A stretch of 64,000 bases of DNA from Punctularia strigosozonata HHB-11173 SS5. Its lineage: Eukaryota; Basidiomycota; Agaricomycetes; Corticiales; Punctulariaceae. A model generated the notes under the pieces. It was not told the DNA's origin. It worked only from the letters and a program-made list of their open reading frames with translations, and did not search any database. Positions within the stretch are counted from its first letter, which is position 1. Each line of letters starts with the position of its first letter. Shown here in pieces: positions 2,134 to 58,535 of this stretch. Made by a program: the position numbers and the translations under genes. Location of the stretch: positions 560,268 to 624,267 of the forward strand of contig NW_006767447.1 of the NCBI RefSeq assembly GCF_000264995.1. Reading direction: 5' to 3'.

Positions 2134-2169
<36 letters not shown>

Positions 2170-2175: not shown

Positions 2176-2429
2176 TCTGCTCGCCCCGTTTCCACGTTAT
2201 CTTTGCGTAAGTATGTACCTGTCTGTGTGTGTGTCCGAAGACGGCTTGGTTGACGGGTAAGCTATGTTCTTGAGGGAGGATCGAGTGTGCGAGTGTGACT
2301 GTGCCACCGCCTGGGTGATCAGCTGTGCAATGATGGGACCAGAAGCGCGATGTCATGATCTGCGGTGGGTGCGTTGAATCTGTGCCGCAGGGCTCGGCTC
2401 GCCTGCCCGAAACGCGTCGTGGATTTTTT

Positions 2430-9630: not shown

Positions 9631-9752
9631 CCTGACTGGCCACATACCACACGTCTCGCTGCTGTCGTTCTCTGCTCAGAAATGCAATACTTCTTCTATA
9701 TACTCGCATGGCGACCCTCACCCTAACTATATACCACAACGCGAGAAGGTGT

Positions 9753-27335: not shown

Positions 27336-27601
27336 ACAGGAAGAAAAGGGTGATTCGAATTACCAGGGTACAAATATTACCTGAGGTATACGTAGAGAAG
27401 CTTCCTCCACGGTTTGGATCGAGGAGCGCAATTTATGAGGAGAGTCGAATCGACGAAAGATACACTGTCTATAGAAATTCATTCACATCTTTGATACATA
27501 AGAGAGGTTTGATTTTTTGATGTTATGTACGACGGCGGGTCGGCGAGGGAACAGTAGTTTGGGGACTCGGAGGAGGTTGGCCAAAGGGGGCTCGAGGGAG
27601 C

Positions 27602-28640
27602 AAGTGAAGACAGGATACAGGTGCACTCTGTATCCCGCCGCCACTCGCCCCGTTACATCAAAGGAGTGTGTATGCATCGCGAGAGTACGCGCGTGCGGAA
27701 GGTATCATGTCCAGGCCGAGAGGTGCCTATCAAGGCGGGTATAACGGGCCCTCGACTCCAAGCGCCTCAAAGCGAGCGTTGAGGGCAGGAGCCGGGGTAT
27801 TGGGGTATCGGGGCCCGTGGGGTCGCAGCCGTGGGTCAGGCGGGTGCGGTCGCGTGTCTCCGAGGGACGAGGTCGGAGAGAGAGGCGAGCGTCTGGAGGA
27901 TTGGGAGGCCGCGGTGGAACGGCGTCCACGGTCGAAGCGTCTTCCTGCCCGAAGAGCGTCGAGACCGACCAGAGGCGGGAGGCGTAAGGCGGGCGGTTGC
28001 TAGAGGAGAACCGCGAAGTGCCGTACGAGCGCCGATGAGATGGGCTGACCAGGCCCTGGCGCAGCGCGAGTGCTGAAGAGGGGCTCCAAGGACTCGGGCG
28101 GGCGTCCTGCTACAGAAGCCAATGTAGGTTGCAGAGGCGTGGCTCGGATGAGCGTGCATGCGCGGGCGCGGGCATGTCGAGAGGTATATAGCGAGGTCGA
28201 CTGCCGAAAGAGGGCCAAAAGAAGGCCGGAATCCCCTCAAGACGGACACGGAGGGCTGGTGAGCCCATCGGCGTCGACATGCAATCGCAAGAGCCTCGGA
28301 ACGGTTGCGATACTAGGAGGAGAGTAACCGTCCTCGAGAGCCGGCAGAGGCAGACCGAGAGGGAAGAGGGCGAGACCAGGGGCAGCTGGAGTTGGCGCCG
28401 GACCAGGACAGAGGATCCAATCCTGAGTTATCGAGGGAGAAGAATGTAGGTGATGACCGAAGCCGTGGATGAGTGACCCGCCGTCGAAGTGTGTTATATG
28501 GAAAAAGTCAAAGATTTAGAGCGAAATGAGACGAGAAAATCCGATGCCATGAGAACGCAGGATTATAATGGAGTGGGATGGCGGATGCGATACGGATGGG
28601 AAGAGAAGATTGATATCCTGCGTAGGACGCGATAAACACA
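27602..28640. other. Left-arm conserved segment without a clear gene
   Basis: Matches right-arm 57,440-58,427 in inverted orientation. It is GC-rich with overlapping open frames on both strands in both arms, but none has a recognisable motif and the frames are not equally maintained. Confidence 0.45.
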
Positions 28641-28727
28641 TCTAGATGATTTCGAGAGTCAGTCCCGCGATCGGAGGTTGATGTCGTCGGCGCTGCTCAC
28701 CTGATTGAAGGCGAAGCGCGCATACAA

Positions 28728-29408
28728 CTAGAAGTGGTGGAAACGAGGACGGAAGACCTTGCCGAGCAGCTCGCGCATGGGATAGATCTTCGGGCCGAGG
28801 GCACGCCGAACAGCTCCTCGACGCTTCGACTTCGACTGGATAGGGCATACGATGATGCCTTCCTCGATCGGGTGGATAGGTTGCTCGCCATCCTGAGTCA
28901 CAAACCATGAGGCGCGCACGAAGGGGATCTGCTTGGGTATGGAGGCGGTACGTGTTTCTTCCTCCTCGTCCTCCTCGGAGATGGTGGAGAGGGGTTCAGG
29001 GGTGCGGACGACCTCTTCCGGAGTAGAAAGGGTCTCCAAAGCCGAGCTGGAAGGTGCCTTTGCCGATAGTCCGCGCAACTGAGCGAGAAGCGAGTTGGAG
29101 AGCGAGTCGAAGTCCTCGGTAGTAGACACCCCAGAGACGGAAGCGAGAGACTTGTCGTCAGAGAAGGAGTTTGACGGTACAACGAACATGTGCGATACGT
29201 TGGCGACAGGCCTCGGAACCACTATAGGAGCCCCGTCGAGGTCGGTATAGACGGCGAGCCGAGACTTTGGACGACGATTGCAGTTGATTCCCTTGGAGCA
29301 GTAAGGAACGCCGTTACAGCTCAGAAGAACTTCGGTGGTGGAGGAAGTCCGAGAGCAGATACAGTCGGTCTTGTAGACCATATTCATAGGCTGCCTGGAG
29401 TAGAGCAT
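28728..29408 (-). CDS. Orphan protein, left-arm copy (226 aa)
   Basis: Uninterrupted frame starting MLYSRQPMNMVYKTDCIC and ending KVFRPRFHHF. No family recognised. Residues 1-90 hold five cysteines in the right copy and one more here (LLSC), the middle is Ser/Pro/Glu-rich with an acidic run, and the end is basic (QSKSKRRGAVRRALG). Against the right-arm copy (56673-57356) the first 90 residues differ at about one position, while the central linker has most substitutions plus a length change. Both frames stay open, which argues for a real protein. A TATAAAAT word sits about 100 bp upstream in both copies (29507-29514 here, minus strand). The frame extends upstream of the chosen ATG, but the TATA box lies in that extension. 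Confidence 0.6.
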   Translation of the reverse strand: MLYSRQPMNMVYKTDCICSRTSSTTEVLLSCNGVPYCSKGINCNRRPKSRLAVYTDLDGAPIVVPRPVANVSHMFVVPSNSFSDDKSLASVSGVSTTEDFDSLSNSLLAQLRGLSAKAPSSSALETLSTPEEVVRTPEPLSTISEEDEEEETRTASIPKQIPFVRASWFVTQDGEQPIHPIEEGIIVCPIQSKSKRRGAVRRALGPKIYPMRELLGKVFRPRFHHF

Positions 29409-30485
29409 GGTAAGGATTGGAGGGACAACTATGGCTGGGCTGTAAGCGGTAGCTGATAGGGATCGAGGACAACCGGAGTTGGTTCCTTTCACGCAGAGGT
29501 GAGCATATTTTATACTCCATCGCAGGCGGAAAGATCGTATTCGCGGATGGCGGATGAAGGGAGGAGGGTTCGGATGGCGGATGGGAGGCGGGATGGCGTA
29601 GGTGGACGGAGCAGCTACAAAAAAGACATCCGCGGGCGACCTGACTGCGGCATGTGTGGGAATATCTCCACGTGGCCATCCAGCGCGATTCATCGACAGG
29701 CTAAGTACCAAGGCGCGTCTCGGATGAAAGGTCCGCGTTTGCGACTCAAAGGAGCGTTACACAAGTCCCCTGGCTGAAAGGTCACTAAAAGCCACTTCGA
29801 ATTGCCTTTGTAGGTAAGAAAAATGCGGGTGATCCATGCGATTCCTCCGTGTCCCCGACCAAGTGACCGCGTCTCATCAAGCCCGTGGATGATACACCGG
29901 CCAGAGGTTTGTTCTAGTCAAAAGCTCAACTACAAAGGGCGGTCGAGGACTAGATGAGATATTACCGAGGTTTTGCCGATGCAACAGAGTTTGATCGACA
30001 CCAGATCTGGTGGTCGAACGTTGGCCAGCAAGAATCGCGTCCCTCTTCGTTTGAGGAAGCGACTGAGGATGGAGCTCGGGACGTTCCACTGACGTTGGCA
30101 ATCAATGGGTCGCCGTTGGGCTCGGGAATGCCGATCGCACCGCTTTGTCCGGATACAAAAGCAGGTCAATATTTTCACAGGTAAGATTGATAAGGGCAAG
30201 CTGAAACCTGAAGAACAGCTTGACGATTATCGAGATATAAGCGGGGAAGAAGCTCACCGACGACAATCACGTTCCCTTTTGCCCCTCCAGTGACGTCCTG
30301 GCTCCCCCGTGCCAGAGATTGAGGACCTAATCCGCCAATCCCCAGGCGTCGGTATGCATGTCTGTCCAGAAGGTAAAGAACGTGTCATCGAACTTTCGAG
30401 AATGAACATGAACACATGTTCTCCGAAGCGGACTTGTGCTATATGCTAAGCAGATGCCGTTAACCACGACCTTACGCCATTTGTC

Positions 30486-30551
30486 TCGATGCAGAATCGC
30501 CGGTCGCTCATCTATCGGAAGGAAGAGCGCGGGATGTTCCCTGTGCTGAAG
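30486..30551 (+). pseudogene. Aldo-keto reductase exon remnant, left arm
   Basis: Encodes SMQNRRSLIYRKEERGMFPV, matching exon 5 of AKR 1/2 ([20 protein letters not shown]) and followed by a GTGAGT donor just as there. The rest of the gene is missing in this arm; more of it survives in the right arm at 50,138-50,480. Confidence 0.75.
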
Positions 30552-30948
30552 GTGAGTGCACACATGATTATCTGCATACAAAGAACTGACGGAACGCAAT
30601 GAAAGCACCTCCGCGTGGGCATATTTTCACGGAGCCCTCTTGCTCGCGCGCTCGTCGCGCGTCCTCTGAACGAGGAGACCAAGAGAAAGGAGGTGTATCC
30701 TGGGATGACACCGTAGCTACGGGGTCTGGATAATCAATCTGTCAGGGCCCGAAACAACACTCTGGCCATAACCCTGAGATAGTGACAATTACGGCTAGTG
30801 TATGGGACACGCTAATTAACGTCATAGTATAGGTGATACTGAGTGGATATCAGATTGCGAGAGCACTACCATGCATCGGGAATGAGATAACCTTGCATGC
30901 ATATGCATGACGCGAAATTTGTGGCGCGAGCTCGAGACCTTGAGAACG

Positions 30949-31292
30949 TCCCAGATCAGAAATCGCAGCTAATTTCCAGACGGCCCTTTAGGCTTCATCC
31001 TACGATGGTCATCAGCATTCTGAACCAATGACATGAAAACACAGGCACTAGCCTCCGCCGGCTCCTCCTAAGCACAGATTAGCAAGCGTAGAGGCAGGAT
31101 TACAATCATGCAACATACCCAGATATCGCAGCTAATTTCCAGTCGGCCCTTTAGATCGCGGCGGCGACGGCAATCTACGATGGTCATCAGCATGCTGAAC
31201 CAATGACATGGAACCACAGGCACTAGCCTCCTCCGTCACCTCCTAAGCACAGATTAGAAGGCGTAGAGGCAGGATTACAATCATGCAACATA
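30949..31292 (-). repeat. Local tandem duplication of the lysozyme-like gene's 3' end
   Basis: Two units of about 170 bp (about 30,949-31,117 and 31,118-31,292) share AATCGCAGCTAATTTCCAG, ATGGTCATCAGCAT and AGGATTACAATCATGCAACA. Each unit carries a copy of the last exon with its acceptor. The right arm has only one unit. Confidence 0.75.
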
Positions 31293-32579
31293 CCACCACC
31301 TCCATAGTCTCCACCGTCATCTCCACCGTAATCGCCGCCATCGTCACCTCCGTAATCACCTCCATCGTCGTCTCCGTAGTCGCCTCCATCGTCGTCTCCG
31401 TAGTCGCCTCCATCGTCGTCTCCGTAGTCGCCCCCATCGTCATCGCCATCGTCGAACTCTCCGTCCTCATCCACGTAGTCATACTGCCAAGAAAAGCAAA
31501 GAATGAGTATCACGATCGAGTTCCTGATATACGCAGTCGCACCCCTCCGTCATCATCTAGATCGTCGACTGCAAAGAACCGTGAGTTGATGGATTATGAC
31601 GAATAGAACTGGGAAGGGTATCGCACTGAGGTCAAGGTAGTCATCTTCGTCGTCGTCTTCATCGCCGTCGGGGTCGCCATTCTCAACATCCTGGCGGATC
31701 TTCGTTGCGCGATCCGCGGCCTCGTTGTAACTATAAGTGCACGCAGTCAAGTTTCGGACCGAGACCGTCAGGCGATGGTCACTGACCGATCAGGGTAAGC
31801 AGAACGTTGGGTCTTCTGGGCTACACCGCTTCAATTAAGCAAGAAAGATGGGACTGAAGGCGGAGAGCCTTACCAATGTCGCCCGGGGCAAGCGAGGGAT
31901 CCTTGTTATAAACTTTCATCGCCTGCATGATCGGATGATGAGACACCAGGGCCAATATTATTTCGTCGTACTACGAACCTGATCAAGGAATGCATTCGTC
32001 GCGTATGTCGGGTCTTGCACCTGGGCGGCAGTGCCCCAGCCCTGTGAGGGTCTTTGCTGGAAAACACCTACATGAGGCGTGAGCGACAGCTAAGCGTCAA
32101 CCAAAATGAGATCGTCATACCAAGGCTGTCGCTATCTCCAAAATTCAGGTTGTCTAAAGAGAGGATAGCGATTGGTCAACGTTCTGTTGATGAACGAATG
32201 TCGATCGCGTACTGATATGACTCTCGACCTGAGAATCATTCAGAAACGAATTAAAATGAACACATGTCGATCGCATACCCATGCCGTCTCAAAGGCAGCT
32301 TGCAGAACTGATTCCGGAACGCCGCGCTGCACTCCGATCTGGTTACTAACAGAAAGAAAGTATCACAATACAATTATCACAGAAGTGTCGCACGGAGAAC
32401 TCACATCAAAGACGCGATGGACGGGTCATAGGTTCTAACATATGGACCTGAGTCAGAAGGGACTCGCGACATGAACATTGTACATACGACGGGATTTTGT
32501 TCTGACGCTTGTGCACCGACGAAGGTAGGGCTTGTGCGCCGATAGACACGAGAAGGACGACGAGAGGATATAAGCGCAT
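31223..32579 (-). CDS. Lysozyme-like protein with acidic tail, left copy
   Basis: Inverted paralogue of the gene at 48240-49629, with the same exon order and splice sites. After a signal-peptide-like first exon (ATG at 32579), the core reads AWVES, then NNLNFGDSDSLGVFQQRPSQ and GWGTAAQVQDPTYATNAFLD, ending QRSAYPDRYNEAADR. The pattern of a helix Glu-Ser followed by G-x-LG-x-x-Q resembles the lysozyme/lytic-transglycosylase fold and an actinobacterial protein type I know by its GDRDSLG-x-FQQRPSQGWGT signature; that match is from memory. Here the signature Arg is Ser (GDSDSLG). The C-terminal tail repeats GDYGDDDG from a 24-bp minisatellite (about 31,330-31,440). Joining exon 1 to exon 2 is one base out of phase in both copies. 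Confidence 0.65.
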
Positions 32580-33632
32580 GTTGCACACTCCGGAGTCCGG
32601 TTGCTGTGAAAGAGGCGGGCGCTGGGTTTACAACGATCCAGGATGCTCAGCCTTTATACGCGCACACCTTGTGCTCTTACTCGCTGGAACTGTTTGCAGA
32701 TCCTGACTAATTCCACTATCGCCCGGGTATCCGGGTGTTGTCTACTATCCGGGTGTTGTCTACCATCACCGGTGCATGCTCCATGAAACGAGCCGCCTTT
32801 ATTCGATGGCAGTTGGCATATGTCCGAGTGATCGTCGTGGGAGGTGCATCCGACATGGTTCGGACGGTGTTGTTGAGCGTATGAGGTCGACTGTGATTGC
32901 CGATGAGCATGCGATACCACTGCGACATAGCACAAGCATAGACCTTGTGAGCGGTGGGAGTTGTGGATACCGGATAATCGGAACACCATACCAGCAAGGC
33001 ACCATCTCACAAGCCGTCCAACATCTCGTGCATCATTCCAGCGAAAGTGGGGTCAGTGGGTGATCATCTCATGCATAGGTATCCGCGCAGTTCATCGCTG
33101 GAAGTGCAGAAACGCAAGGTTGCCAATACACACATCAAACGGCGCTAGATAACAATGAAGGGTACGTTGAGCGGGTTAAGGTATCAGCGAAAACTTGGTA
33201 CATACCTACAGTGTTGTGTTTTTCCAGTGGCAATGCTAAGGCAAAATTGCACGTCAAGGCACAAATTAGCCATGCCGACGCCAAACCGACGTTCAAGGAT
33301 TCTCCGAGGCTCGTGGTGCCTGAGTCCGAGGCCATTTGATCACGAGAAGGGCTTGGCGCTCGTCATCCGCTTCGAAATGACTGGGTATCGTAGTTTCGGG
33401 CCTGTTGGACGAACTGGAGTAAGGCGTGAATGAGTCCCACTTGGGTTATTGCAATAATGAGCTGAATTTGCGCGACGAACGGGCAGCCAACAGTGCTTCA
33501 GGTCGAGCAAAGCTGTGTGGAGACCAGTGAGACGAGGTATGCTTGCTCTCTGGTCTTCTCGAGGCTCGGGCGGAGTAGATATGTCAAACAGTCCAAGTTA
33601 TTTTTAGAATGTGGGAAAACACTCCCTAACAA
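32580..33632. other. Left-arm intergenic, mirrored in right arm
   Basis: Corresponds to right-arm 47,190-48,239. Short frames appear on both strands in both arms but carry different small indels (for example about 16 bp near right-arm 47,530), so coding is unlikely. Confidence 0.5.
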
Positions 33633-33916
33633 GGCTCGGCTAGTTCTACACGTAGCGCTGTACCTGATTTAGATCCATCAGCGTACATGAAAGATCATGA
33701 TGTCCGGCCACCCGTGAACGCTCAACGGGTAGGCCATACTCACAAGTAAGCGCCACTCCAAAAAAAAAAAAAAAGATCATGATGTCGGTGGAAGTACTGA
33801 CATGTCCACTAGGATACACCATCTGTGACTTGCGCCATTATCTTCGGTACCGGTTCGAGGAAGAGACGTACACGACTGTTCGTTGGAATGCACGTAGGCG
33901 CTTCAAAGTTTACTCT
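33633..33916. mobile_element. Left-arm-specific insertion of about 284 bp
   Basis: Absent from the right arm, where the flanks CACTCCCTA and AACATTGACAG are directly joined. AACA occurs at both ends and may be a 4-bp target duplication. No coding capacity. A second, smaller insertion lies inside it. Confidence 0.55.
33690..33786 (+). mobile_element. Retroposed hairpin sequence with poly-A and 15-bp target duplication
   Basis: The word AAAGATCATGATGTC occurs at 33690-33704 and again at 33772-33786. Between them lie 55 bp followed by 15 A residues that run into the second copy. The 55 bp can fold: GGCCACCCGT pairs with ACGGGTAGGCC around a 9-base loop. Long direct flanks and a poly-A tail are the marks of LINE-driven retroposition. 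The source RNA is not recognised. Confidence 0.7.
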
Positions 33917-34342
33917 GAACATTGACAGATGCACGGCGTCCTTCGTTCCTTGAGTTGGATCGGAGTATGATTGATTGTCAGCAAGCAGTTACGTTCGACC
34001 TCGTAGTCATCGGCAAACACGGAAGGCCGTTGGGTATCATCTGCTCCTGTAGTCATCTGAGATCCCCACATCTGACCTCCTCATCCTCTCCTGACATGGT
34101 CATCAGGTGCGCGATACCTGCACATCAAGACGTGCAGATTGACGTACGGTGAAGTCAATGCCGGGCTTTAGTCAGCGTAGTTGGATGATCAAAGCATGGC
34201 CGAACGGCAGAGTATGCACCATTCGCAAGTGATCGAGATGCAACCGGATTGCCAGGGACATGCTGTTACAACGAGCGCCACGGCGAGCTCCGTGAAGAAC
34301 CAGTACCGTACACTCGCTGCGAACACAATCACAGTCATTGTC

Positions 34343-35122
34343 TTATCCTCCATTGCAATCGCGCTCGGTAACATCACCTGACTGCCCCGCTCTCTTCTCC
34401 ACCTGACCAGTATCTCCAGGCTTCAGGTCTGCATTCACCTGCGAGCTCCGTAGTTCCGTGTTGTTCCCCATTTGTGATATCACTTCTTGCGCCGGAAATA
34501 TACCTACCTACCTACCTACATCAGCGACCTCCCGCCCGACGCGATAGAACGTCAGCACGGAGATAGTCTCCACCCCCACGACACCGAGCATGAACCACAG
34601 CGCCGCCGCTCTCCCTTCATACTCGTCGAAGCCGCGGCTACTTTTCTTCTCCACGCTGCTCTCCACGCTAGAGACGGTAGCGATGCCGACGGCGTATCCG
34701 AGCTGGAACGCGCCGTTGTAGATGGCACCGACGGTGCCCGCCATGCGCGACGGCGTCGTGCGGAAGATGGCGATATTCGTGTGCGTGAACGTGAGCATCG
34801 CCCCTGTGGCGCCAACCACGAAAGCAGAAAAGACGAACGGCCAGTAGGCATTCGGGCTCGATGCCAACGCAAGGAGGATCGTTGCGACGATCAGTAAAGC
34901 CTCGCCCGTGAGGATGATCCACTTCGGTTCGATTATGCGCGCCAGAGGACCGGTGCAGCTGACAACGGATGCGACGATGCCGACAGGCAGAAAATGGATA
35001 GCGCTGACGATCGCGCTCCAGTCAAACACGGCTTGGAATAGATTCGTGTAGATCGTGAAGACGGCAGTGAACCAGAAATGGGGAAGGAGGGCGACGCCGA
35101 ACAGGACCGAGAAGTTCTTGTT
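34343..35122 (-). pseudogene. MFS transporter 3' half, left-arm copy
   Basis: Inverted duplicate of the last part of MFS transporter 1 (46,055-46,803). The frame is open from KNFSVLFGVALLPHFWFTAV to YRVGREVAD and then ends early, because a 30-bp CCTA-tailed insertion (34489-34518) supplies a TAG. The promoter, start and first seven or so helices are absent, because the arm boundary cuts the coding exon at 35,122. It cannot make a transporter. Confidence 0.85.
34489..34518 (+). mobile_element. CCTA-tailed repeat, copy C (30-bp 5'-truncated)
   Basis: GCGCCGGAAATATA followed by four CCTA units interrupts a sequence that is continuous in the right arm (near 46,660). It equals the 3' end of copy B. 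This is the shape of a severely 5'-truncated retroposition product. Confidence 0.7.
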
Positions 35123-44958: not shown

Positions 44959-46803
44959 ATGACAGATAGCGTAGCTCGCTCTCCCCCAGCGTCCCTGCTC
45001 GACGGAAACCTGCAGGACGAAATATCTGGCACTAGAAGATATGCGCTGCTTGCCGTCTTCTGCTTGGCTCAGTTTTTGGATTCGTTCAACAACTCGTCGC
45101 TGTTTTCAGCTCTCCCGACACTCATTGTCCAACTGCATATGTCGGAATCCGAGTCTACGTGGCTCATCAGCGCCTACCAACTCACCTTTGCCAGCTTCCT
45201 GCTCGTGGTAAGCCATGTTTTAATATACGAACCCTTTATTTCACTCACAGGTCCGATAGAGTGGGAGAATCGCCGACGTGTACAATCCGAGTACGATCAT
45301 TCATTACCGACCGCTGAGACCAACACAGTCATGCTGACAACCGCATTCCATAGAGGTGTCGTTCATCATGGGGATCTCCTGCGTTGGATTCATATGCATT
45401 GGAGCTGGCTTCCTTCGATCCAAGATCGTTCTCATTGTCCTACGAGCCTTATGTGGCATAGCAGCGTGCTTGACGATCCCGTCCGCCCTAACGCTGCTCG
45501 TCAATATCTTCATCGAACCCACCGAGCAAGCACGGGCTATCGGGATATTCGGTGGCTGCGGCGCCGTTGGCAACGGTGAACATCGTTGCGCTCGATGTCT
45601 GAACGAGGCTTACCAGCTTGCCAGTGCTCGGGCTCATCATTGGTGCCATCTTTGTCCAGTTCACCTCATGGCCATGGGTCTTCTGGTTTGCAGCCATCGT
45701 CGCTCTCCCGCTCGCGGGGATGTGCGTGTTTCTCATACCGAAGCAAGAGCCTCGCCCAGGAGAAGAAGCCCTGTCTCGATCAGTCAAGTTCAAGACGATT
45801 GACAGTATTGGCGTCTCGGTGCTCACAGGTGAGCAGTTTTCCATCTCAGCCCTGCGTAACCGAGCCTGATAATTTCCTGAAAGCTGCACTCATTCTTCTC
45901 ATTTTTGGCGTCACCTCCGGTACTTCCTCCGGGTGGGGTTCTGCTACCGTCCTTGCGCCATTGATCATATCTGTCTTCCTCGTCACCGGCTTTCTCTACT
46001 ATGAGACACGCATCCCGTCAGAGAGAGCGGCCGTTCCCCCATCGATATGGTTCTACAAGAACTTCTCGGTCCTGTTCGGCGTCGCCCTCCTTCCCCATTT
46101 CTGGTTCACTGCCGTCTTCACGATCTACACGAATCTATTCCAAGCCGTGTTTGACTGGAGCGCAATCGTCAGCGCTATCCATTTTCTGCCTGTCGGCATC
46201 GTCGCATCCGTTGTCAGCTGCACCGGTCCTCTGGCGCGCATAATCGAACCGAAGTGGATCATCCTCACGGGCGAGGCTTTACTGATCGTCGCAACGATCC
46301 TCCTTGCGTTGGCATCGAGCCCGAATGCCTACTGGCCGTTCGTCTTTCCTGCCTTCGTGGTTGGCGCCACAGGGGCGATGCTCGCGTTCACGCACACGAA
46401 TATCGCCATCTTCCGCACGACGCCGTCGCGCATGGCGGGCACCGTCGGCGCCATCTACAACGGCGCGCTCCAGCTCGGATCCGCCGTCGGCATCGCTACC
46501 GTCTCGAGCGTGGAGAGCAGCGTGGAGAAGAAGAGTAGCCGCGGCTTCGACGGCTATGAAGGGAGAGCGGCGGCGCTGTGGTTCATGCTCGGTGTCGTGG
46601 GGATGGAGACTATCTCCGTGCTGGCGTTCTATCGCGTCGGGCGGGAGGTCGCTGATGAAGAAGAGGTATCACAAATGGGGAACAACACGGAACTACGGAG
46701 CTCGCAGGTGAATGCAGACCTGAAGCCTGGAGATACTGGTCAGGTGGAGAAGAGAGCGGCGCAGTCAGGTGATGTTACCGAGCGCGATTGCAATGGAGGA
46801 TAA
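44959..46803 (+). CDS. MFS transporter 1, DHA2-type
   Basis: Proton-coupled exporter of the plasma membrane, drug:H+ antiporter-2 type (yeast Atr1 relatives). Five exons (44959-45207, 45260-45290, 45354-45575, 45625-45828, 45884-46803) join in phase for 541 residues, every exon matching MFS 2 in phase and the first four in length. Motif A-like SGRIADVYNP sits between helices 2 and 3. LRALCGIAACLTIPSALTLL and IFGGCGAVGN are the helix 4-5 region. The C-terminal half (from KNFSVLFGV) was copied into the left inverted arm. The start and first half lie outside the inverted repeat. Substrate unknown. Confidence 0.9.
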
Positions 46804-48239
46804 GACAGTGACTGTGATTGTGTTCGCAGCGAGTGTACGGTACTGGTTCTTCACTCGTTGTAACAGCATGTCCCTGGCAATCCGGTTGCATCTCGATCAC
46901 TTGCGAATGGTACATACTCTGCCGTTCGGCCATGCTTTGATCATCCAATTACGCTGACTAAAGCCCGGCATTGACTTCACCGTACGTCAATCTGCACGTC
47001 TTGATGATGACCATGTCAGGAGAAGATGAGGAGGTGTGGGGAGCTCAGATGACTACAGGAGCAGATACCCAACAGCCTTCCGTATTTGCCGATGACTACG
47101 AGGTCGAACGTAACTGCTTGCTGACAATCAATCTCCGATCCAACTCGCCGGCGTCAAGGAACGGAGGACGTCGTGCATCTGTCAATGTTTAGGGAGTGTT
47201 CTCCCATGTTCTAAAAATAACTTAAACTGTTTGACATACCATGGGGTCCACTCCAAGCCTCGAGAAGACCAGAGAGCAAGCATACCTCGTCTCACTGGTC
47301 TCCACACAGCTCAGCTCGACCTGAAGTACTGTTGGCTGCCCGTTCGTCGCGCAAATTCAGCTCATTATTGGAATAACCCAAGTAGACTCATTCACGCCTT
47401 ACTCCAGTTCGTCCAACAGGCCCGAAACCCGGACATTTCGAAGCGGGTGACGATCGCCAAGCCCTTCTCGTGATTAAATGGCCTCGGACTCAGGCACCAC
47501 GATCCTCGGAGAATCCCTGAACGTCCGTTTGGCATGCCAGAAATAGGCGTCGGCATGGCTAATTTGTGCCTTGACGTGCAATTTTGCCTTAGCATTACCA
47601 CTGGAAAAAAACAACACTGTAGGTATGTACCCAGTTTTCGCTGATACCTTGGCCCGCTTATTCAGCTTGACGTGCCCTTTATTGTTATCTAGCGCCGTTT
47701 GATATGTATATTGGCAACCTTGCGTTTCTGCACTTCCAACGATGAACTGCGCTGATACCTATGCATGAGATGATGACCCACTGACCTCACTTTTGCTGGA
47801 ATGATGCACGAGATGTTGGACGGCTTGTGAGATGGTGCCTTGCTGGTATGGTGTTCCGATTATCTGGTATCCACAACTCCCACCGCTCACAAGGTCTATT
47901 TTTGTGCTATGTCGCAATAGTATCGCGTGCTCATCGGCAATCGCAGTCGATCTCATACGCTCAACAACGCCATCCGAACCATGTCGGATGCACCTCCCAC
48001 GACGATCACTCGGACATATGCCAACTGCCATCGAATAACGGCGGCTCGTTTCATGGAGCATGCACCGGTGATGGTAGACAACACCCGGATACCCGGGCGA
48101 TAGTGGCATTAGTCAGGATCTGCAAACAGTGCCGGCGAGTAAGAGCACAAGGTGTGCGCGTATAAAGGCTGAGCATCCTGGATTGTTGTAAACCCAGCGC
48201 CCGCCTCTTTCACAGCAACCGGACTCCGGAGCGTGCAAC
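46804..48239. other. Right-arm intergenic, mirrored in left arm
   Basis: Matches left-arm 32,580-34,342, but without the 284-bp insertion found there. Short frames only. Confidence 0.5.
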
Positions 48240-49629
48240 ATGCGCTTATATCCTCTCGTTGTCCTTCTCGTGTCTATCGGCGCACAAGCCCTACCTTCGT
48301 CGGTGCACAAGCGTCAGAACAAGATCCCGGCGTATGTACAATGTTCATGTCGCGAGTCGCTCCGGACTCAGGTCCATATGTTAGAACCTATGACCCGGCC
48401 ATCGCGTCTTTGATGTGAGTTCTCCGTGCGACACTTCTGTGATAATTGTATTGTGATACTTTCTTTCTGTTAGTAACCAGATCGGAGTGCAGCGCGGCGT
48501 TCCGGAATCAGTCCTGCAAGCTGCCTTTGAGACGGCATGGGTATGTGATCGACAGGTGTTCAGTTTAATTCGTTTCTGAATAGATTCTCAGGTCGAGAGT
48601 CATATCAGTACGCGATCGACATTCGTTCATCAACAGAATGTTGACCAATCGCTATCCTCTCTTTAGACAACCTGAATTTTGGAGATAGAGACAGCCTTGG
48701 TATGACGATCTCATTTTGGTGACGTTTAGCTGTCGCTCACGCCTCATGTAGGTGTTTTCCAGCAAAGACCCAAATATGGCTGGGGCACTGCCGCCCAGGT
48801 GCAAGACCCGACATACGCCACGAATGCGTTCTTTGATCAGGTTTGTTGTACGACGAAATGATATTGGCGTTGGTGTCTCATCATCTGATCATGCAGGCGA
48901 TGAAAGTTTATAACAATAATCCTTCGCTTGCCCCGGGCGACATTGGTAAGGCTCTCCGCCTTCAGTCCCATCTTTCTTGCTGAATTGAAGCGGTGTAGCC
49001 CAGAAGACCCAACGTTCTGGTCACCCTGATCGGTCAGTGACCATCGCCTGACGTTCTCGGTCAGGAACTTGACTGCGTGCACCTATAGTTACAACGAGGC
49101 CGCGGATCGCGCAACGAAGATCCGCCAGGATATTCAGAATAACGACCCCGACGGCGATGAAGACGACGACGAAGATGACGACCTTGACCTCAGTGCGATA
49201 CCCTTCCCAGTTCTATTTGTCATAATCCATCAACTCACGGTTCTTTGCAGTCGACGATGAAGATGATGACGGAGGGGTGCGACTGCGTATATCAGGAACT
49301 CGATCGTGATACTCATTCTTTGCTTTTCTTGGCAGGATGACTACGTGGATGAGGACGGAGAGTACGACGATGGTGATGTTTATGGTACTGGAGCCGACGA
49401 CGGAGACGAAGATGAAGACAACGATGGAAGCGACTACGGAGACGATGGAGGTGATGACGGAGGTGACGATGGCGGTGATGACGGTGGAGATGATGGTGAT
49501 GGTGGAGACTATGAAGGAGGCGGAGGTGGTGACGGAGGTGGTATTGACACTGGAGATGGTATGTTGCATTATTGTAATCCTGCCTCTACGCTTACTAATC
49601 TGTGCTTAGGAGGTGACGGAGGAGGCTAG
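48240..49629 (+). CDS. Lysozyme-like protein with acidic tail, right copy
   Basis: Twelve small exons. Exon 1 (48240-48331) encodes a signal peptide, MRLYPLVVLLVSIGAQALPS, and a KR that may be a processing site. Exons 2-12 (48372-48414, 48474-48540, 48592-48607, 48667-48699, 48752-48840, 48897-48945, 48999-49032, 49089-49192, 49251-49276, 49336-49558, 49610-49629) join in phase. They encode FETAWVES, NNLNFGDRDSLGVFQQRP, GWGTAAQVQDPTYATNAFFD and HPDRYNEAADRATKIRQD, then about 100 residues of Asp/Gly/Glu. Glu in WVES and the GDRDSLGVFQQ block suggest a lysozyme/transglycosylase-like cell-wall hydrolase; this is inference. RPKYGWG replaces the RPSQGWG of the left copy. The exon 1-2 join is one base out of phase, so the N-terminus is uncertain. 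Confidence 0.7.
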
Positions 49630-50137
49630 TGCCTGTGTTTCCATGTCATTGGTTCAGCATGCTGATGACTATCATAGGATGCCGTCGCCGCCGCGATCTA
49701 AAGGGCCGACTGGAAATTAGCTGCGATTATTGATCTGGGACGTTCTCAAGGTCTCGAGCTCGCGCCACAAATTTCGCGTCATGCATATGCATGCAAGGTT
49801 ATCTCATTCCAGATGCATGGAGGTGTTCTCGCACTCTGATATCCACTCAGTATCACCTGTACTATGACGTTAATTAGCGTGTCTCATACACTATCCGTAA
49901 TTGTCGCTATCTCAGGGTTATGGCCAGAGTGTTGTTTCGGGCCCTGACGAATTGATTATCCAGACCCTGTAGCTACGGTGTCATCCCAGGATACACCTCC
50001 TTGCTCTTGGTTTCCTCGTTCAGAGGACGCGCGATGAGCGCGCGAGCACGAGGGCTCCGTGAAAATGTGCGCACGCTGAGGTGCTTTCATTGCGTTCCGT
50101 CAGTTCTTTGTATGCAGATAATCATGTGTGCACTCAC
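49630..50137. other. Right-arm intergenic
   Basis: Mirrors left-arm 30,560-30,960 and the single unit of the left arm's tandem duplication. No gene. Confidence 0.5.
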
Positions 50138-50480
50138 CTTCAGCACAGGGAACATCCCGCGTTCTTCCTTCCGAAAGATGAGCCACCGGCGATTCTGCAT
50201 CGAGACAGGGCGTAAGGTCGTGGTTAACGGCGTCTGCTTAGTATATAGCTGAGGTGTATTCGTGTCGATGTAATCGAGCAGCAGATGCTCCAGCCAGTGG
50301 TTCACGCATTCATATATATGCTTCATGACAGGGCAATCAGCACCCCGTACGCATTGCACCAGTAATTATATATAAGATTCAGACGACCTTTGCGCGAGAG
50401 CCTAAGATGTGTCACGTAGCCGCGCTGGTCGATCTTGTCGCAGTGAAGCATATCAAGGATCCAGTTCCAAAGCTAATACA
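50138..50480 (-). pseudogene. Aldo-keto reductase remnant, right arm
   Basis: Parts of three AKR exons in order on the minus strand: end of exon 3 (KIDQRGYVTHLRLSRK), start of exon 4 (KHIYECVNHWLEHLLLDYID) and exon 5 (SMQNRRWLIFRKEERGMFPV). Compare [14 protein letters not shown] and [19 protein letters not shown] in AKR 2. The H and most of the barrel are missing. It lies inside the duplicated arm, so a third AKR existed before the arm was duplicated. Confidence 0.75.
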
Positions 50481-51888
50481 CAATAGTCAGGTCATCTCAG
50501 CAACATGTCTCAATATTCAGTGCGATGTTCGCTCACGGCTGTGCCTCTTTATCTTGTCAAGGTGACGTGGTGGTGCCCTCCTTTAACCCGTCCATGGACG
50601 CAACGTGAAAATGCCCTGCCCGCAAGTCTCTTCGCGCTACGTGAAGCGCTTTGATGGGATACCTCAGTTACGTCGTCGAAGAGCGAGAGAACATGGAATG
50701 GTTCAATGCCGTAATGTGATGGTTTGGGGTCTGCACGCGCTCGACTCCAAGTCCTCGTCGGTAACGAGCTTCGACTCAGCGTTGCAACTCCGACTCAGCT
50801 CCGATTTTGCGCTGGCACAGGCTCCTCAATGGCGCTTTCGTTTACTGTCGACATGTCATACATGATTTGAACTCGAAACTGGCGTGATGGGATGCTTCGG
50901 TGCTTTTTCGACCTGCACATAGACGGCGGACCTGGCAAGCGAAGGACTATAGCTATACTCCATTTCATTAAGTAGTGCGCTCGCAAGCATTCAGCGTGTT
51001 CCAAGGGCGCTAACGAGATGGTCTGCCTTTTCGCAAAGTGTACTATGGTTATTTCCGATGGAGTAAAAAAGTAATCGAAGCTATCTATTGCATGCGGCGG
51101 CGGCTGCCGCTGCTGTGGGCGTGCGAGGTTTGACCATTCCCATGGTGGCACCGGAGCGGCCATCGTCTTTCTGCAAGTCCGCTTCGGAGAACATGTGTTC
51201 ATATTCATTACCGGGAGTTCGATGACGCGTTTTATACCTTCTGGTCAGACATGCATACCGACGCCTGGGGAATGGCGGATTAGGTCCTCAATATCTGGCA
51301 CGGGAGAGCCAGGACGTCACTGGAGGGGCAAAAGAGAGAGTGATTGTCGTCGGTGAGCTGCTTCCCCGCTTCTATCTCGATAATCGTCAAGCTGTTCTTC
51401 AGGTTGCAGCTTGCCCTTACCAATCTTACCTGTGGAAATATTGACCTGCTTTTGTATCCGGACAAAGCGCTGCGATCGGCATCCCCGAGCCCAACGGCGA
51501 CCCATTGATCGCCAACGTCAGTGGAACGTCCCGAGCTCCATCCTCAGGACGCGATTCTTGCTGGCCAACGCTCGAGAGCTAGTGCATCCTTATTCGAAAA
51601 TGTTTGCGTCTTTCGATCTTAGTTCGACCACCAGATCTGGTGATGATCAAACTCTGTTGCATCGGCAAAACCTCGGTAATATCTCATCTAGTCCTCGACC
51701 GCCCTTTGTAGTACTAGAACGAACCTCTGGCCGGTGTATCATCCACGGGCTTGATGAAACGCAGTCACTTGGTCGAGGACACGGAGCAATCGCATGGATC
51801 ACCCGCATTTTTTCTTACTTACAAAGACAATTCGAAGTGGCTTGGTGACCTGCAAACGCGGACCTTTCATCCGAGACGCGCCTTAGTA
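50481..51888. other. Right-arm segment without clear gene
   Basis: 50,481-51,172 is missing from the left arm; the frame at 50795-51208 (minus) has no motif. 51,172-51,888 mirrors left-arm 29,720-30,430, where short frames on both strands also lack motifs. Confidence 0.45.
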
Positions 51889-52192
51889 AGACGTCCACAG
51901 GAGTCAGAAAGACGTTATCGGCACCTTATCTGCCGCGAGAGGGCGTGGGAACAGGTCCAGAATGTTGAAATGTCGTGCTCTGATTGGTCAAAGAAGGCGA
52001 GCACCCCGCCTCGACCCTTGCTGAACTGAACCCGCACGGCTTTTTCTACCGACCCATCTATTAGATCACCGTGCCCTGGGGAACTCTTATAAGCTGGGGG
52101 GGGCCTCACCCGCGTTCCCTGGCTCTTCCCCGCTGCTCCCCCGGCTTGAATCTCCCGCTTGACGACTCTCGCGACGACCATTCGAGTTCCTC

Positions 52193-54058
52193 ATGACAGC
52201 TATCGCGCCCCTCTCGCCCGCGGCGACCCTTGTCGACGGGCGTCTGCCTGATCCCACCTCGGTCCTGAGACGCTACGTCTTGCTTATCGTCTTCTGTCTC
52301 GCGCAGTTCCTGGACGCGTTCAACAACTCGGCGCTGTTCTCCGCCATCCCGTCGCTCATCGCCACGCTTCACATGACGGAAACCGAATCTACGTGGATCA
52401 TCAGTGCATTCCAGCTCACGTTTGCTAGCTTCCTGCTTGTGGTGAGTCATGACGCTCTATTCCTGGGGCCACGCCGATTCTTATCGATGTACTGCTTTTC
52501 AGAGTGGCCGAATTGCGGACGTATACAATCCGAGTAAGCATTTTCCCTCGATCTCTCACCGTTGTGTCTTGACAACCATGCCCTACTTCCTGTAGAGGCC
52601 GCATTCATTGCTGGTATCTCAGGCCTTGGCTTCATATCCATCGGGGCTGGCTTCGTCCGCTCAAAGATTGTCCTCATCGTGCTACGTGCGCTGTGCGGCA
52701 TAGCTGGCAGCTTGACGATCCCTTCGGCATTAACTCTACTTGTCAACGTCTTCGTTGAGCCCTCTGAGCAAGCTCGAGCTATCGGAGTATTCGGTGGCTG
52801 CGGTGCCATCGGCAACGGTATGCGCAGTGTACTACTCTACCGCATCCTGACGCTAATCCTTTCGTCGATAGTGCTCGGTTTGGTCATCGGCGCCATCTTC
52901 GTTCAGTACACCTCCTGGCCCTGGGTGTTTTGGTTCGTGGCCATCGTGGCTTTACCTCTAGCTGGACTCTGCGTGTTCCTCATCCCGAAGCAAGAGGAGA
53001 GATATGGAGAGGAGCCGATGTCCTCCTCCGCCAAATTCAAGAGTCTCGACAGCGTGGGCGTCTCGCTGCTAACAGGTACTGCTTTTACGTCTCCGCGCTA
53101 TCGGACGATAGTTCTTACACATTCTTCCACAGTCTCGCTCATCCTTCTCATATTCGCCGTCACGTCTGGCTCTTCCTCTGGATGGGGCACTGCTACCGTT
53201 CTTGCGCCATTGATCATCTCCATCTTCCTCCTCGGCGGCTTCCTCTACTACGAGACGCTCATTCCGCCTGAGACCGCCGCCGTCCCGCCCTCGACCTGGT
53301 TCTTCAAGAACTTCTCCGTCCTGTTCGGCGTCGCTCTCCTCCCATACTTCTGGTGGACAACCGTCTTCACGATCTACACCAACCTTTGGCAGGCCGTCTT
53401 CGGTTGGCGCGCTATCGACAGCGCGATTCACTTCATCCCCATCGGCGTCGTCGCCTTCGCCGCGAGCTGGACCGGTCCTCTCGCCCGCATCGTGGACCCG
53501 AAGTGGATCATCCTCTCGGGCAACGTCTTGATGATCGTCGCGACCGTTCTCCTCGCGCTCGCCTCGAGCGCGCACGCCTACTGGCCGTTCGTCTTTCCCG
53601 CGTTCGTACTCGGGTCCACGGGCGCAATGCTCACGTTCACGCACACCAACATCGCCATCTTCCGCACGACGCCGTCGCGGATGGCCGGCACCGTTGGCGC
53701 CATCTTCAATGGCGCGCTCCAGCTCGGCTCGGCGGTGGGCATCGCTGCTGTCACGAGCGTCGAGAGCAGTGTCGAGGAGAAGAGCAGCCGCGGGTTCGAG
53801 GGATACGAGGGTCGCGCGGCGGCGTTTTGGTTCGTGCTCGGCATTGTCGGGTTGGAGACGATCTCGATTTTGGTGTTCTACCGCCGCGTGGGGCGGGAAG
53901 CTGTGGACGAGGAGGCGATCCAGGAAAAGAAGGACGTCGTGGATGTAGAGGAAGAAAATCGGACTCGTCAGCCGGAGTCAAGTCCCGTAGCGGAGGATGA
54001 GATTCAGATGGAGAAGGAGGCTGCGCAATCGGAGGAAGTGACCGAGCATAGGAGGTGA
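52193..54058 (+). CDS. MFS transporter 2, DHA2-type
   Basis: Intact paralogue of MFS 1. Exons 52193-52441, 52503-52533, 52596-52817, 52872-53075 and 53133-54058 join in phase for 543 residues; the first four exon lengths equal those of MFS 1. Helix regions begin RRYVLLIVFCLAQFLDAFNN; SGRIADVYNP is motif A; LCGIAGSLTIPSALTLLVNV and FGGCGAIGN follow. About twelve to fourteen hydrophobic segments and a hydrophilic Glu/Asp-rich C-terminus (about 50 residues) fit a plasma-membrane exporter of the Atr1 group. Codon third positions are more GC-rich than in MFS 1, suggesting different expression or age. Substrate unknown. Confidence 0.9.
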
Positions 54059-54543
54059 GAGCTAATCAGGACCAGCACCTGAATGCTCATACATGGGGTC
54101 TTTACTGTTCACGCTTTCGGATTAAAAGTTTGACTTCATAGATTTCTGCATCAATATTGTAGCTGTACATTGTCATACCATAGATTTCTCAGGACGACCA
54201 ATAGACGTTTACCATGATTCATGACCTTGAACTCGCTCTAATTCTACAACTTCAGCTCCCTTACGAAGGCGGACAAGAACCACGTGCCGTGCCCGACGCG
54301 AGCTGGCCCACTTCGCCCGACACCGGGTTGCTCGACGCGTCGTTTGCTCGCGCTCTCTACGTCAACGTTACTCACCTACCTCGCTGAGCATCGGAGCTTG
54401 GTCGTTGAGGACCCGTATATCTCGATGCATCAACGTGACGTACTCCGCTCTGTTTTGGCTTTGACATATACTTCGTTAACCCGTTTTCATTCTCAGGTCC
54501 CCACTAGCAGGACGAGGAAAACCGGTCTCAGCCCGCTTGATCG
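54059..54543. other. Intergenic, no gene seen
   Basis: 3' flank of MFS 2 and upstream flank of the broken F-box gene. Confidence 0.5.
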
Positions 54544-56242
54544 ATGATCTGCGTTGATGCTCCCAACACACATGTGAGTTTTGCTAAGCTACTCATCCTT
54601 CCTAATCTGCTCATGCCCACACGGATTCGCAGCAACCCCATCCATCGTGTTCGTTCGAGTTGCCCATATCTCTCATCTGGGGACAAACGACGAGATATCG
54701 ACTCAAAGATTAGCGATCTTCTTGAAGAAGTATCCTCTATCCTCGAACAAGTGCGCTCGCTCTGCGAAAATCGAAACCAACTAGCGCCGGTTGCTCGTCT
54801 ACCCTCTGAAGTTCTATCCATGATCTTCCGTGCATGCTTGCCCTGTGCAGAAGGCCGTCGTACGTTCCCGTCTAGCCATATTTTTTTCGCACGTCTGTCG
54901 ATACTGGAGGGTGATCGCGCTTGACAGCAAACCGCTTTGGTTGGACGTGCCCCGTAGGAACGTCGCACTCACCGAGATGTTCTTGGAGAGGTCGAAGCGT
55001 ACGCCGCTCTTCATCCGTGGAAAATCTTACGATCGCTGGAACCACGCATCGAACATCTTGGGTGATGCGGCGTTGTCGGTTTCCCTACGCTACTTGAACC
55101 GCACCCGCTTTCTGTTCCTGGACTGCGAAACAAGTACCGTCGCCTGCAATGTCGAGCGCCTATCTTCCCCCGCCCCGATCCTCACCGGATGTCATATATT
55201 TGCTTCTCGCTGCCACGAAGCGCGACTCCCCGCCAACTTCTTGAGTTTGCGTGCCCCTCGTCTTAGCTACCTATCCCTCGTCGACGTGTCGTTCAGCTGG
55301 CGAACCCTGCGCTTCCCTTCGTTGGTCAAGGCTTTGACGTAACTTACGCTGTACTACTTGCCTGAAGACGCCTCTCCCAGCGGAGAGGAGCTTGCCGTGG
55401 CCCCCAGGGGAATGCCTTCCTTAAAGAATCTAAGCTTTCAATCTATGTTTTCGACCGCCGGGCAGTTGCTGGGACCACTGACAGCGAACAACCTCGCCAT
55501 TTTGCCTCGATTGAAGTTGTTGTGGCTGCACGGGATGGGAGCCTACATAAGCCACCTGCTCGCTCACACCCGTGCCCCGTCCATTTCCTCGATGCACGTA
55601 AAACTCGTGGATAACGACGAACCTTGCGATCCAACCCCCCTTACGACCTATCCTCGCCGATCACGGCATTTGTCGCAGTGCCGATGTGTTGGCACGTCGC
55701 GTCGCCATCTATATGCAAAACGACGGATGCAATGTGCACGTGAACGTGGACCCAACACACGATCCTGCCCACCCGGTACTCAAACTATCTATTCCCTATC
55801 GCTGGCAGTCTGTGCTTCTTCGCGCAATACGCAGGGTGCACCTAGGAAACGTCGAGACAATCGAAATCCGGATACTACGCGGGTTGACTATGACCGACTT
55901 TTCACCGACATCCTCCGTCGCTGCGTACGTACTTCGGAGCTGGTCCTGTATGGGTCGTCCGGGTCACTGTTGCTTCTATTTAGTGCTATGGCGAGGGATT
56001 CTTGTTTATCTCCATCGCTGTGTCGTGTGCGTCTCCAACTGGAGAGGGCGTTCGATGATCATCTGTTGCATGCTTGCGAAGACCTTGCCGGCAGATATAA
56101 GTCGACGAACGTTTCGTTGAACCTTATTCTTAAGGAAGATTACTTTCTTGATGTCTCTCAGGTGCATAATCCGAAAAACATCGCTGGTATCGAATGCGTC
56201 GTGGTCGCATGTATCCGAGAGACGGCAGTGGCTTTGGAGTAG
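54544..56242 (+). pseudogene. F-box-like gene, broken
   Basis: Same layout as the F-box genes at 9,753 and 38,996: coiled coil (DLLEEVSSILEQVRSLCENR), F-box (LAPVARLPSEVLSMIFRACL), then SHVCRYWRVIALDSKPLW and leucine-rich repeats. Breaks: an extra T in a seven-T run near 54,887 shifts the frame just before SHVCRYW; a TAA at 55,340-55,342 stands where relatives have Ser or His (ALT-stop-LTLYYLPED); further frame changes lie near 55,650 and 55,860. The end still reads SLCRVRLQLERAFDDHLL. At least four breaks make sequencing error an unlikely full explanation. Confidence 0.8.
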
Positions 56243-56571
56243 TGTTGGTAGAGGCAGTGGCGAAGGTGCATGATGTTTGATGATACGCTTGATGGATACA
56301 TTGTAAGGGAGGAGAACCACTACGATACTTTCGTACGGACCCGATCTACGGTGCGGCACGTTGGAATTGGGACTATATAGCCATACTTATAGCCTCTGTC
56401 GATGAATCGCGCTGCATGACCACGTGGAGATATTCCCACACATGCCGCAGTCAGGTCGCCCGCGGATGTAGCTGCTCCGACCACCTACGCCATCCCGCGT
56501 CCCATCCGCCATCCGAACCCTCCTCCCTTCATCCGCCATCCGCGAATACGATCTTTCCGCCTGCGATGGAG

Positions 56572-56579
56572 TATAAAAT
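56572..56579 (+). promoter_or_regulatory. TATA box of orphan ORF, right copy
   Basis: TATAAAAT about 94 bp upstream of the ATG at 56673; conserved at the same place in the inverted copy. Confidence 0.6.
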
Positions 56580-56672
56580 ATGCTCACCTCTGCGTGAAAG
56601 GAACCAACTCCGGTTGTCCTCGATCCCTATCAGCTACCGCTTACAGCCATAGTTGTCCCTCCAATCCTTACC

Positions 56673-57356
56673 ATGCTCTACTCCAGGCAGCCTATGAATA
56701 TGGTCTACAAGACCGACTGTATCTGCTCTCGGACTTCCTCCACCACCGAAGTTCTTCTGAGCGTTAACGGCGTTCCTTACTGCTCCAAGGGAATCAACTG
56801 CAATCGTCGCCCAAAGTCTCGGCTCGCCGTCTATACCGACCTCGACGGGGCTCCTATAGTGGTTCCGAGGCCTGTCGCCAACGTATCGCACATGTTCGTC
56901 GTGCCGTCTAACTCCTTCTCTGACGACAAGTCTCTCGCTTCCGTCTCTGGGGTGTCTGCTCTCGAGGACTTCGACACACTCTCCAACTCGCTTCTCGCTC
57001 AGTTACGTGGACTGTCGGCCAAGGCACCTTCCAGCTCGGCTGTAGAGCCCCTTTTTACTCCGGAAGAGGTCGTCCGTGCCCCTGAACCCCTCTGCACCAT
57101 CGCCGAGGAGGACGAGGAGGACGAAGAAGAACGTGCCGCATCCGTTCCCGAGCAGATCCCCTTCGTGCGGGCTTCCTGGTTTGTAGCTCAGGACGGCGAG
57201 AAAGACCCCCACCCGCTCGACCAAGGCATCATCGTATGCTCTATCCAGTCGAAGTCGAAGCGTCGTGGAGCCGTTCGGCGTGCCCTTGGCCCGAAGATCT
57301 ATCCCATGCGCGAGCTGCTCAGCAAGGTCTTCCGCCCTCGTTTCCACCACTTCTAG
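56673..57356 (+). CDS. Orphan protein, right-arm copy (227 aa)
   Basis: Open frame of 227 codons, paralogue of 28728-29408. Starts MLYSRQPMNMVYKTDCIC, includes VPYCSKGINCNRRPKSRLAV, an acidic linker (IAEEDEEDEEERAAS) and a basic end (KSKRRGAVRRALGPKIYPMR). No signal peptide or membrane helix is evident. Conservation of the N-terminal 90 residues and the C-terminal 40 between arms, with changes packed into the linker, suggests two constrained domains joined by a flexible acidic link. The family is not recognised. Confidence 0.62.
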   Translation: MLYSRQPMNMVYKTDCICSRTSSTTEVLLSVNGVPYCSKGINCNRRPKSRLAVYTDLDGAPIVVPRPVANVSHMFVVPSNSFSDDKSLASVSGVSALEDFDTLSNSLLAQLRGLSAKAPSSSAVEPLFTPEEVVRAPEPLCTIAEEDEEDEEERAASVPEQIPFVRASWFVAQDGEKDPHPLDQGIIVCSIQSKSKRRGAVRRALGPKIYPMRELLSKVFRPRFHHF

Positions 57357-57439
57357 TTGTATGCGCGCTTCTCGTACAATCAGGTGGGCAGTGCCGACGA
57401 TATTATCCTCTGATTGCGCGACTGACCCTCGAAATCGTC

Positions 57440-58535
57440 TAGATTTAATTATTCTCTTCCCTTTCATGCGGCCCCCACCCTACCACTCCATTCCATTCCA
57501 ACTTCGTCATGGCATCGGATCTTCTCGTCTCATTTCGCTCCAAATCCTTGACTTTTTACATATAACACACTTCGACGGCGGGTCACTCATCCACGGCTTC
57601 GGTCCTCACCTACATTCTTCTCCCTCGATAATACAGGATTGGATCCTCTGTCCTGGTCCGGCGCCAACTCCAGCTGCCCCTGGTCTCGCCCTCTCCCCTC
57701 TCGGTCTGCCTCCTTCTCGCATCGCAACGGTTCCGAGGCTCTTGCGATTGCACGTCGACGCCGATGGGCTCACCAGCCCTCCGTGTCCGTCTTGAGGGGA
57801 TTCCGGCCTCCTTTTGGCCTTCTTTCGGCAGTCGACCTCGCTATATACCTCTCGACATGCCCGCGCCTGCACGCTCATTCGAGCCACGCCTCTGCAACCT
57901 GCATCGGCCTTTGTAGCAGGACACCCGCCCGAGTCCTTGGAGCCCCTCTTCAGCACTCGTGCTGCGCCAGGGCCTGGTCAGCCTATCTCATCGGCGCTCG
58001 TACGGCACTTCGCGGTTTTCCTCTAGCAACCGCCCGCCTTACGCCTCTCGCCTCTGGTCGGTCTCGACGCTCTTCGGGCAGAAAGACGCCTCGACCGTGT
58101 ACGCCGTGCCACCGCGGCCTCCCAATCCTCCAGACGCTCGCCTCTCTCTCCGACCTCGTCCCTCGGAGACACGCGACCGCACCCGCTTGACCCACGGTTG
58201 CGACCCCACGGGCCCCGATACCCAAATACCCCGGCTCCTGCCCTCAACGCTCGCTTTGAGGCGCTTGGAGTCGAGGGCCCGTTATACCCGCCTTCATAGG
58301 TACCTCTCAGCTTGGACATGATACCCTCCGCACGCGCATACTCTCGCGATGTATACACACTCCTTTGATGTAACGGGGTGAGTGGCGGCGGGATACAGAG
58401 TGCACCTGTATCCTGTCTTCACTTGCCTCTCCGGGTGCCTACATTCGGCGTCCCTCCTCCTCCTGCCATCTTTCCCGCCACCGACCCGCCGTCGTATATA
58501 ATATCAAAAACATCTGTATCAAATACGTGTTAACT
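57440..58535. other. Right-arm conserved end without clear gene
   Basis: Mirrors 27,490-28,640. Overlapping frames on the plus strand (57639-58190, 57959-58321) have no motif. Outer boundary of the inverted repeat is near 58,535. Confidence 0.45.

Follow-up and report, generated by a model that had tools for sequence, protein, structure and literature searches.

A candidate secreted GH184-type muramidase with an acidic Asp/Gly tail in the fungus Punctularia strigosozonata

The locus at 48240-49629 (+ strand) of a 64,000-nucleotide stretch of the Punctularia strigosozonata HHB-11173 SS5 genome (contig NW_006767447.1, positions 560,268 to 624,267; the whole stretch is referred to as the window) raises the question of whether a basidiomycete encodes a bacterial-type wall-cutting enzyme fused to a long acidic tail, and where such a protein came from. 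The original prediction, made from the letters alone, had described a lysozyme-like protein of actinobacterial kinship, possibly acquired from bacteria.

Analysis of the exon structure confirmed, at the level of a sequence-derived GT-AG model, that 48240-49629 reads as one spliced gene of 12 exons and 11 introns with a product of 260 amino acids, and the ATG-to-TAG span and twelve exons of the original prediction were consistent with this reading. The start ATG was located at 48240 and the stop TAG at 49627-49629. Exons 1-6 were placed at 48240-48331, 48385-48414, 48474-48540, 48592-48607, 48667-48699 and 48752-48840, and exons 7-12 at 48897-48945, 48999-49032, 49089-49192, 49251-49276, 49336-49558 and 49610-49629. 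All 11 introns were of the GT-AG type with lengths of 51-59 nt, and all 11 GT-AG pairs were preserved in a second copy of the gene at 31226-32579. Such densely spaced short introns fit a basidiomycete. The motifs AWVES and GWGTAAQ, on which the lysozyme-like claim had been built, were present and were joined in one frame by splicing; AWVES is split between W and V by the intron 48541-48591, and the spliced frame also holds NNLNFGDRDSLG|VFQQRP. Intron 8 was read as 49033-49088 (56 nt, 3' end CTATAG at 49088) because the second copy has no nearer AG, the length matches the other introns, and the resulting protein reads HPDRYNEAADRA, as in its relatives. A shorter intron 8 of 32 nt was ruled out since its AG is absent from the second copy.

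The N terminus (48240..48314, +) looked like a signal peptide when the translation was inspected by eye, as had been predicted for the exon ahead of the core, and ended in a KR pair, which we take to be a Kex2-like site. The core (about residues 31-155, a length of about 125 residues; 48385..49143, +, spliced), delimited by homology searches and alignment, was nearly neutral (pI 6.1, charge -1.1). A phmmer search of Protein Data Bank sequences gave a single match below 0.001, TtGH184 (8b2h, E=2.3e-10), followed by KsGH184 (8b2e, E=0.035). PMC10394673 describes the crystal structures of both these GH184 catalytic domains. The profile search proposed earlier gave matches of 1.7e-18 and 5.1e-16 to the GH184 crystal sequences, the latter for 8b2e, with a profile that contains bacterial rows. 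Among PHROGs, the best of six matches were a tape measure family (7.2e-27) and an endolysin family (1.4e-20). Pfam gave nothing useful for the whole protein, only a chance Drc1-Sld2 match (E 1.7) lying mostly over the acidic tail, and NCBIfam gave nothing useful for the core. Pfam holds models for lysozyme families such as GH23, GH24 and GH25, and the window protein matched none of these. An SH3-like domain was also absent, with no SH3 match in Pfam and few residues separating the KR site and the core.

Alignment placed Glu65 (48595..48597, +) with Glu41 of KsGH184, which is reported in PMC10394673 to be essential by mutation, and Asp75 (48684..48686, +) with Asp66 of KsGH184, near which the same paper places a residue with a presumed substrate-stabilising role. 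Glu65 and Asp75 were retained in the alignment of all four intact-reading genes of this genome, including the second copy, the paralogue L009 and the gene on contig C23. The Glu-Asp-FQQ pattern was found in 140 of the 141 fetched bacterial and viral loci, a set that includes some duplicates (e.g., L012 and L029), and the Glu was also visible in the single miss. Structure prediction was carried out on the Pimelobacter relative L012 (51% identical; AlphaFold2, mean pLDDT 86.9), and its model matched 8b2e (TM 0.75/0.78, E 1.3e-6) and 8b2h (E 3.9e-5), with nothing else at E<=0.001 and phi29 gp13 third at E 0.14. The fold result belongs to the relative L012, the sequence that was modelled, and a GH184 fold is a prediction for the window core. 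Taken on its sequence matches, conserved catalytic Glu and the modelled fold of L012, the core is assigned as a predicted GH184-type muramidase domain, in line with the lysozyme-type core proposed at first, and the precise family GH184 is an identification beyond that proposal.

The tail (49144..49626, +, spliced, partly repetitive) was delimited by translation and repeat search and has 105 residues (net count -53), close to the fusion of about 100 Asp/Gly/Glu residues originally described. The tail would not simply balance a basic enzyme, since the core is nearly neutral and the tail strongly acidic. Most likely, though at low confidence, it forms a disordered, extended polyanionic extension affecting solubility and the approach to charged surfaces. 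A serious rival to a functional tail, plausible but leaning towards improbable, is that it is a near-neutral by-product of minisatellite slippage and no functional module. Short-period repeats do occur at about 49421-49517, where one overlapping row is a 12-bp unit reading DGGD, and the tail length varies between the aligned window copies (51 gap columns in exon 11), as slippage would produce. Against this, three close genes share the acidic, Lys/Arg-poor composition, which the divergent C23 gene also shows in a tail of different sequence, and the first part of the tail (DLDLIDDEDDDG) shows good conservation from the window gene to L009.

An Arg-rich Cys loop, itself conserved, may come after the polyanionic extension. 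A candidate 13th exon encoding a C-terminal CRRRRDLKGRLEISCDY lies at 49678..49733 (+), and its joining requires a GC-AG intron at 49625-49677, giving a 277-aa protein ending in CRRRRDLKGRLEISCDY. The counterpart C terminus of L009, GCRRRRDLEGREIISCDFEF, has its own exon behind an intron starting with GT and ending with AG, and by eye the differences between the window and L009 counterparts fell mostly at third codon positions. A homologous exon 13 may follow behind the GC-AG intron; alternatively, the TAG at 49627 may be the true end.

Searches of the genome (33.6 Mb, 32 contigs; locus counts are lower bounds) revealed at least five domain-bearing loci on four contigs. The second copy (31226..32579, -), intact as modelled with 249 aa, kept the Glu and Asp and has GDSDS for GDRDS. 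Self-comparison showed that it lies, with an MFS reading frame, in one arm of an inverted segmental duplication (27514..35121), the other arm being broken up across 46055-58510. The arms are 87-92% identical, piecewise, and carry the muramidase gene, the MFS frame and other sequence. A further MFS frame at 52281-53898, between pieces of the second arm, was 73.5% identical to 45047-46646, and a tandem duplication (85% identical) was seen at 30957-31294, in the 3' end region of the second copy. Outside the window, L009 on C10 is an intact paralogue, L010 on C2 is a decayed one with a stop within the signal peptide (by eye), and the C23 paralogue is divergent (49% core identity); its tail of 335 residues is rich in Asp, Ser and Thr. 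The tail repeats of this divergent paralogue (L011/L028, G000 C23, about 100600-104800) are DATATDSADATATD-like and GDDAGDDLDTG-like. Given this 335-residue repeat tail, low-complexity acidic tails recur among the GH184-type genes of the genome.

Pfam matched 6 of ten neighbouring frames (three MFS, F-box, alpha/beta hydrolase and aldo-keto reductase), and two of the three MFS frames sit in the duplicated arms. Bacterial contamination of the assembly, which the bacterial type of the domain might suggest, has a practically negligible probability in view of the eleven GT-AG introns, the copies on four contigs and the matches of neighbouring frames to MFS, F-box and aldo-keto reductase families. 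The G+C content per 2-kb step was 57-67% in window positions 1-10000 and 50-59% elsewhere in the window.

Purifying selection on the core was strong against the paralogue L009: dN/dS was 0.067 for one window copy and 0.056 for the other, at a dS above 1.3, near saturation. Between the two window copies, 12 non-synonymous and 4 synonymous changes gave an omega of 0.88, and on these few changes the recent duplicates may be under looser constraint. These values bear on the idea that the domain has kept peptidoglycan binding and lost catalysis, acting as a lectin or decoy with the tail as the functional part. The omega of 0.88, the lack of a wall-binding domain and the very low values of a characterised member without one are what such a protein might show; the Glu and Asp kept in four intact-reading genes and the strong purifying selection against L009 speak the other way, and we regard this idea as very unlikely.

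The proposed kinship with actinobacteria was backed by the sequence searches, together with the modelled fold of L012 and the conserved catalytic Glu. A prokaryote scan, limited to close relatives, gave 45 candidate stretches, of which 12 were confirmed, and all 12 titles named actinobacteria. Targeted sampling of bacterial genomes was directed at actinobacteria and found the domain in 218 of the 394 genomes sampled from one actinobacterial class and in 12 of the 198 sampled from the phylum. Matches were also obtained in 185 of 72,556 plasmids and in 296 of 50,697 phage records, 254 of these 296 being phages of Streptomyces, Gordonia or Mycobacterium. Two GH184 genes are listed in a Streptomyces in PMC12199506. 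Among the sequences searched, the nearest relatives outside this genome were actinobacterial and viral-contig proteins with up to 52% identity; core identity was 52% to the nearest actinobacterial rows as against 37% to TtGH184. Between the Glu and the Ser of S-x-G-x-FQQ lie 12 residues in the fungal gene (by eye), as in 132 of the 140 bacterial and viral loci; KsGH184 and TtGH184 (by eye) have 27, a spacing shared with a single bacterial locus, Micromonospora L020. This L020 was the best non-self match of both ascomycete GH184 enzymes in the first alignment set. The viral-contig protein L051 (1492-2733) carries a GH184-type domain, followed by a short acidic D/G-rich linker and a part that resembles a VanY-type D-Ala-D-Ala peptidase.

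Three unrooted trees were generated on few columns (129). The first set took the domain from 104 of 112 loci in forward frames only, the other 8 being minus-strand matches, and consisted, once thinned, of 62 rows, to which 4 fungal and 2 PDB rows were added. The second took it from 38 of 61 bacterial loci (forward frames), of which 12 were used, with viral rows thinned from 43 to 25, and omitted the long-branch rows L021, L022, L023 and L042 and the two ascomycete rows. The third covered both strands and 141 of 141 loci, used 30 of 61 bacterial and 30 viral rows, and omitted the same rows as the second. Viral rows were drawn from 80 loci kept of 289 viral relatives and picked by similarity to the query, and the fungal sequences compared were the rows of this genome and the ascomycete KsGH184 and TtGH184. 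Results showed that the four fungal rows formed one supported group in all three trees (100/98, 100/97 and 100/96), adjoined by the viral-contig row L051 (95/70, 97/83 and 94/74); L082 and L127, on long branches, also adjoined the fungal rows, in a starred set of seven. The third tree gave long-branch warnings for L127, L082, L047 and Q5, and the trees are weakened by these long branches and the few columns.

The phylogeny with bacterial homologues proposed at the outset gave one fungal group beside L051, while the AU tests rejected no placement: all fungal rows grouped (p 0.507), the ascomycete enzymes with L020 (p 0.496) and the fungus with bacterial rows (p 0.348) were each retained. A phage rather than a bacterial donor, which the trees favoured through the sister position of L051, is not claimed, because the viral rows were chosen by similarity and the fungus-plus-bacteria placement had an AU p of 0.348. 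Since the nearest searched relatives outside the genome are actinobacterial and viral-contig proteins, a bacterial or phage origin is likely, and on these sequence comparisons an actinobacterium or one of its phages was probably the source of the domain, with duplication in the fungus afterwards. The acquisition from bacteria first suggested is likely in this wider form, and on its direction, the donor and the number of transfers the AU tests were indecisive. That the domain is instead old and vertically inherited within fungi, in one clade with the ascomycete GH184 enzymes, agrees with the retained single fungal clade (p 0.507), but the closer identity to actinobacterial rows (52% against 37% to TtGH184) and the short spacing shared with 132 of 140 loci, against 27 in the two ascomycete enzymes and L020, make it rather unlikely. 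A bolder scheme, which we consider speculative and unlikely, holds that there were at least two fungal GH184 acquisitions, the ascomycete one from a long-loop actinobacterial lineage and this family from a short-loop actinophage-type lysin or tape-measure domain, and that a DGGD polyanionic spacer ending in an Arg-rich loop bounded by two Cys was then gained, electrostatic targeting or restraint replacing the SH3 domain. The AU tests, run to look for evidence that fungi acquired the domain twice, gave none.

Returning to the enzyme itself, the gene product is, with high probability, a secreted GH184-type N-acetylmuramidase of a filamentous fungus, judging from the exon structure, homology, conserved active-site residues and purifying selection against the paralogue. 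The signal peptide would export the muramidase from the cell, and Kex2-type cleavage after KR would release the mature N terminus. Glu65 would serve as the catalytic acid and Asp75 would help to hold the substrate, and the enzyme would cleave the glycan strands in the peptidoglycan of bacteria that surround the hyphae, either in defence or to feed on them. The acidic tail might keep the muramidase soluble and set its approach to charged surfaces, which is suggested at low confidence. The window enzyme may be weak too, since KsGH184, likewise without a wall-binding domain, gave very low values. If this reading is true, it would add a second architecture, perhaps a second origin, for fungal GH184 muramidases and another instance of a eukaryote that took up a bacterial gene for wall cutting and multiplied it; a bacterial lysozyme family has been described as having entered all domains of life (PMC4241558). 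The acidic-tailed GH184 is also a direct test case for whether a polyanionic tail can replace a wall-binding domain. The GH184 family and its fungal members are already known. The literature found gives no description of the SH3-less acidic-tailed architecture, of this host group or of a closer identity to actinobacterial and phage domains, and no basidiomycete GH184 paper was among the matches listed in the literature searches (best 15 of 137, 10 of 223 and 8 of 9).

Compared with known systems, weak structural likeness was seen between the L012 model and the N-terminal domain of phi29 gp13 (3csq/3csr; TMq 0.54-0.56, E 0.14-0.41), and phi29 gp13 gave no sequence match in the phmmer or profile search of Protein Data Bank sequences. 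It is placed in a different family from GH184 in PMC10394673. The actinobacterial and actinophage relatives, annotated as peptidoglycan-binding, C40 or NlpC/P60, lysin A and tape measure proteins, share 43-52% core identity (nearest rows), the same active-site pattern and mostly the same spacing with the window protein. They differ from it in having no introns and in often lying within larger wall-active or tail proteins, and the frames inspected had no long D/G tail, L051 having its short acidic D/G linker. GH184 is a family defined in 2023, and the genera of the fungal enzymes tabulated for it (Table 5 of the paper cited next) we take to be ascomycetes. Table 5 of PMC10394673 gives reducing-sugar values for 15 fungal GH184 enzymes, 14 of which were well above KsGH184, which lacks a wall-binding domain and showed very low values of 0.05 and 0.45. 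According to the same paper, an N-terminal SH3-like domain is present in 14 of the 15 produced enzymes and absent from KsGH184 and the bacterial members, so that the window protein differs from most of these enzymes in lacking it. KsGH184 (8b2e) and TtGH184 (8b2h) are fungal like the window protein and share with it a homologous catalytic domain with the same catalytic Glu and Asp66 equivalent; the window protein is distinguished from both by its 12-residue spacing (27 in theirs), its C-terminal acidic tail and its higher identity to actinobacterial and viral-contig proteins.
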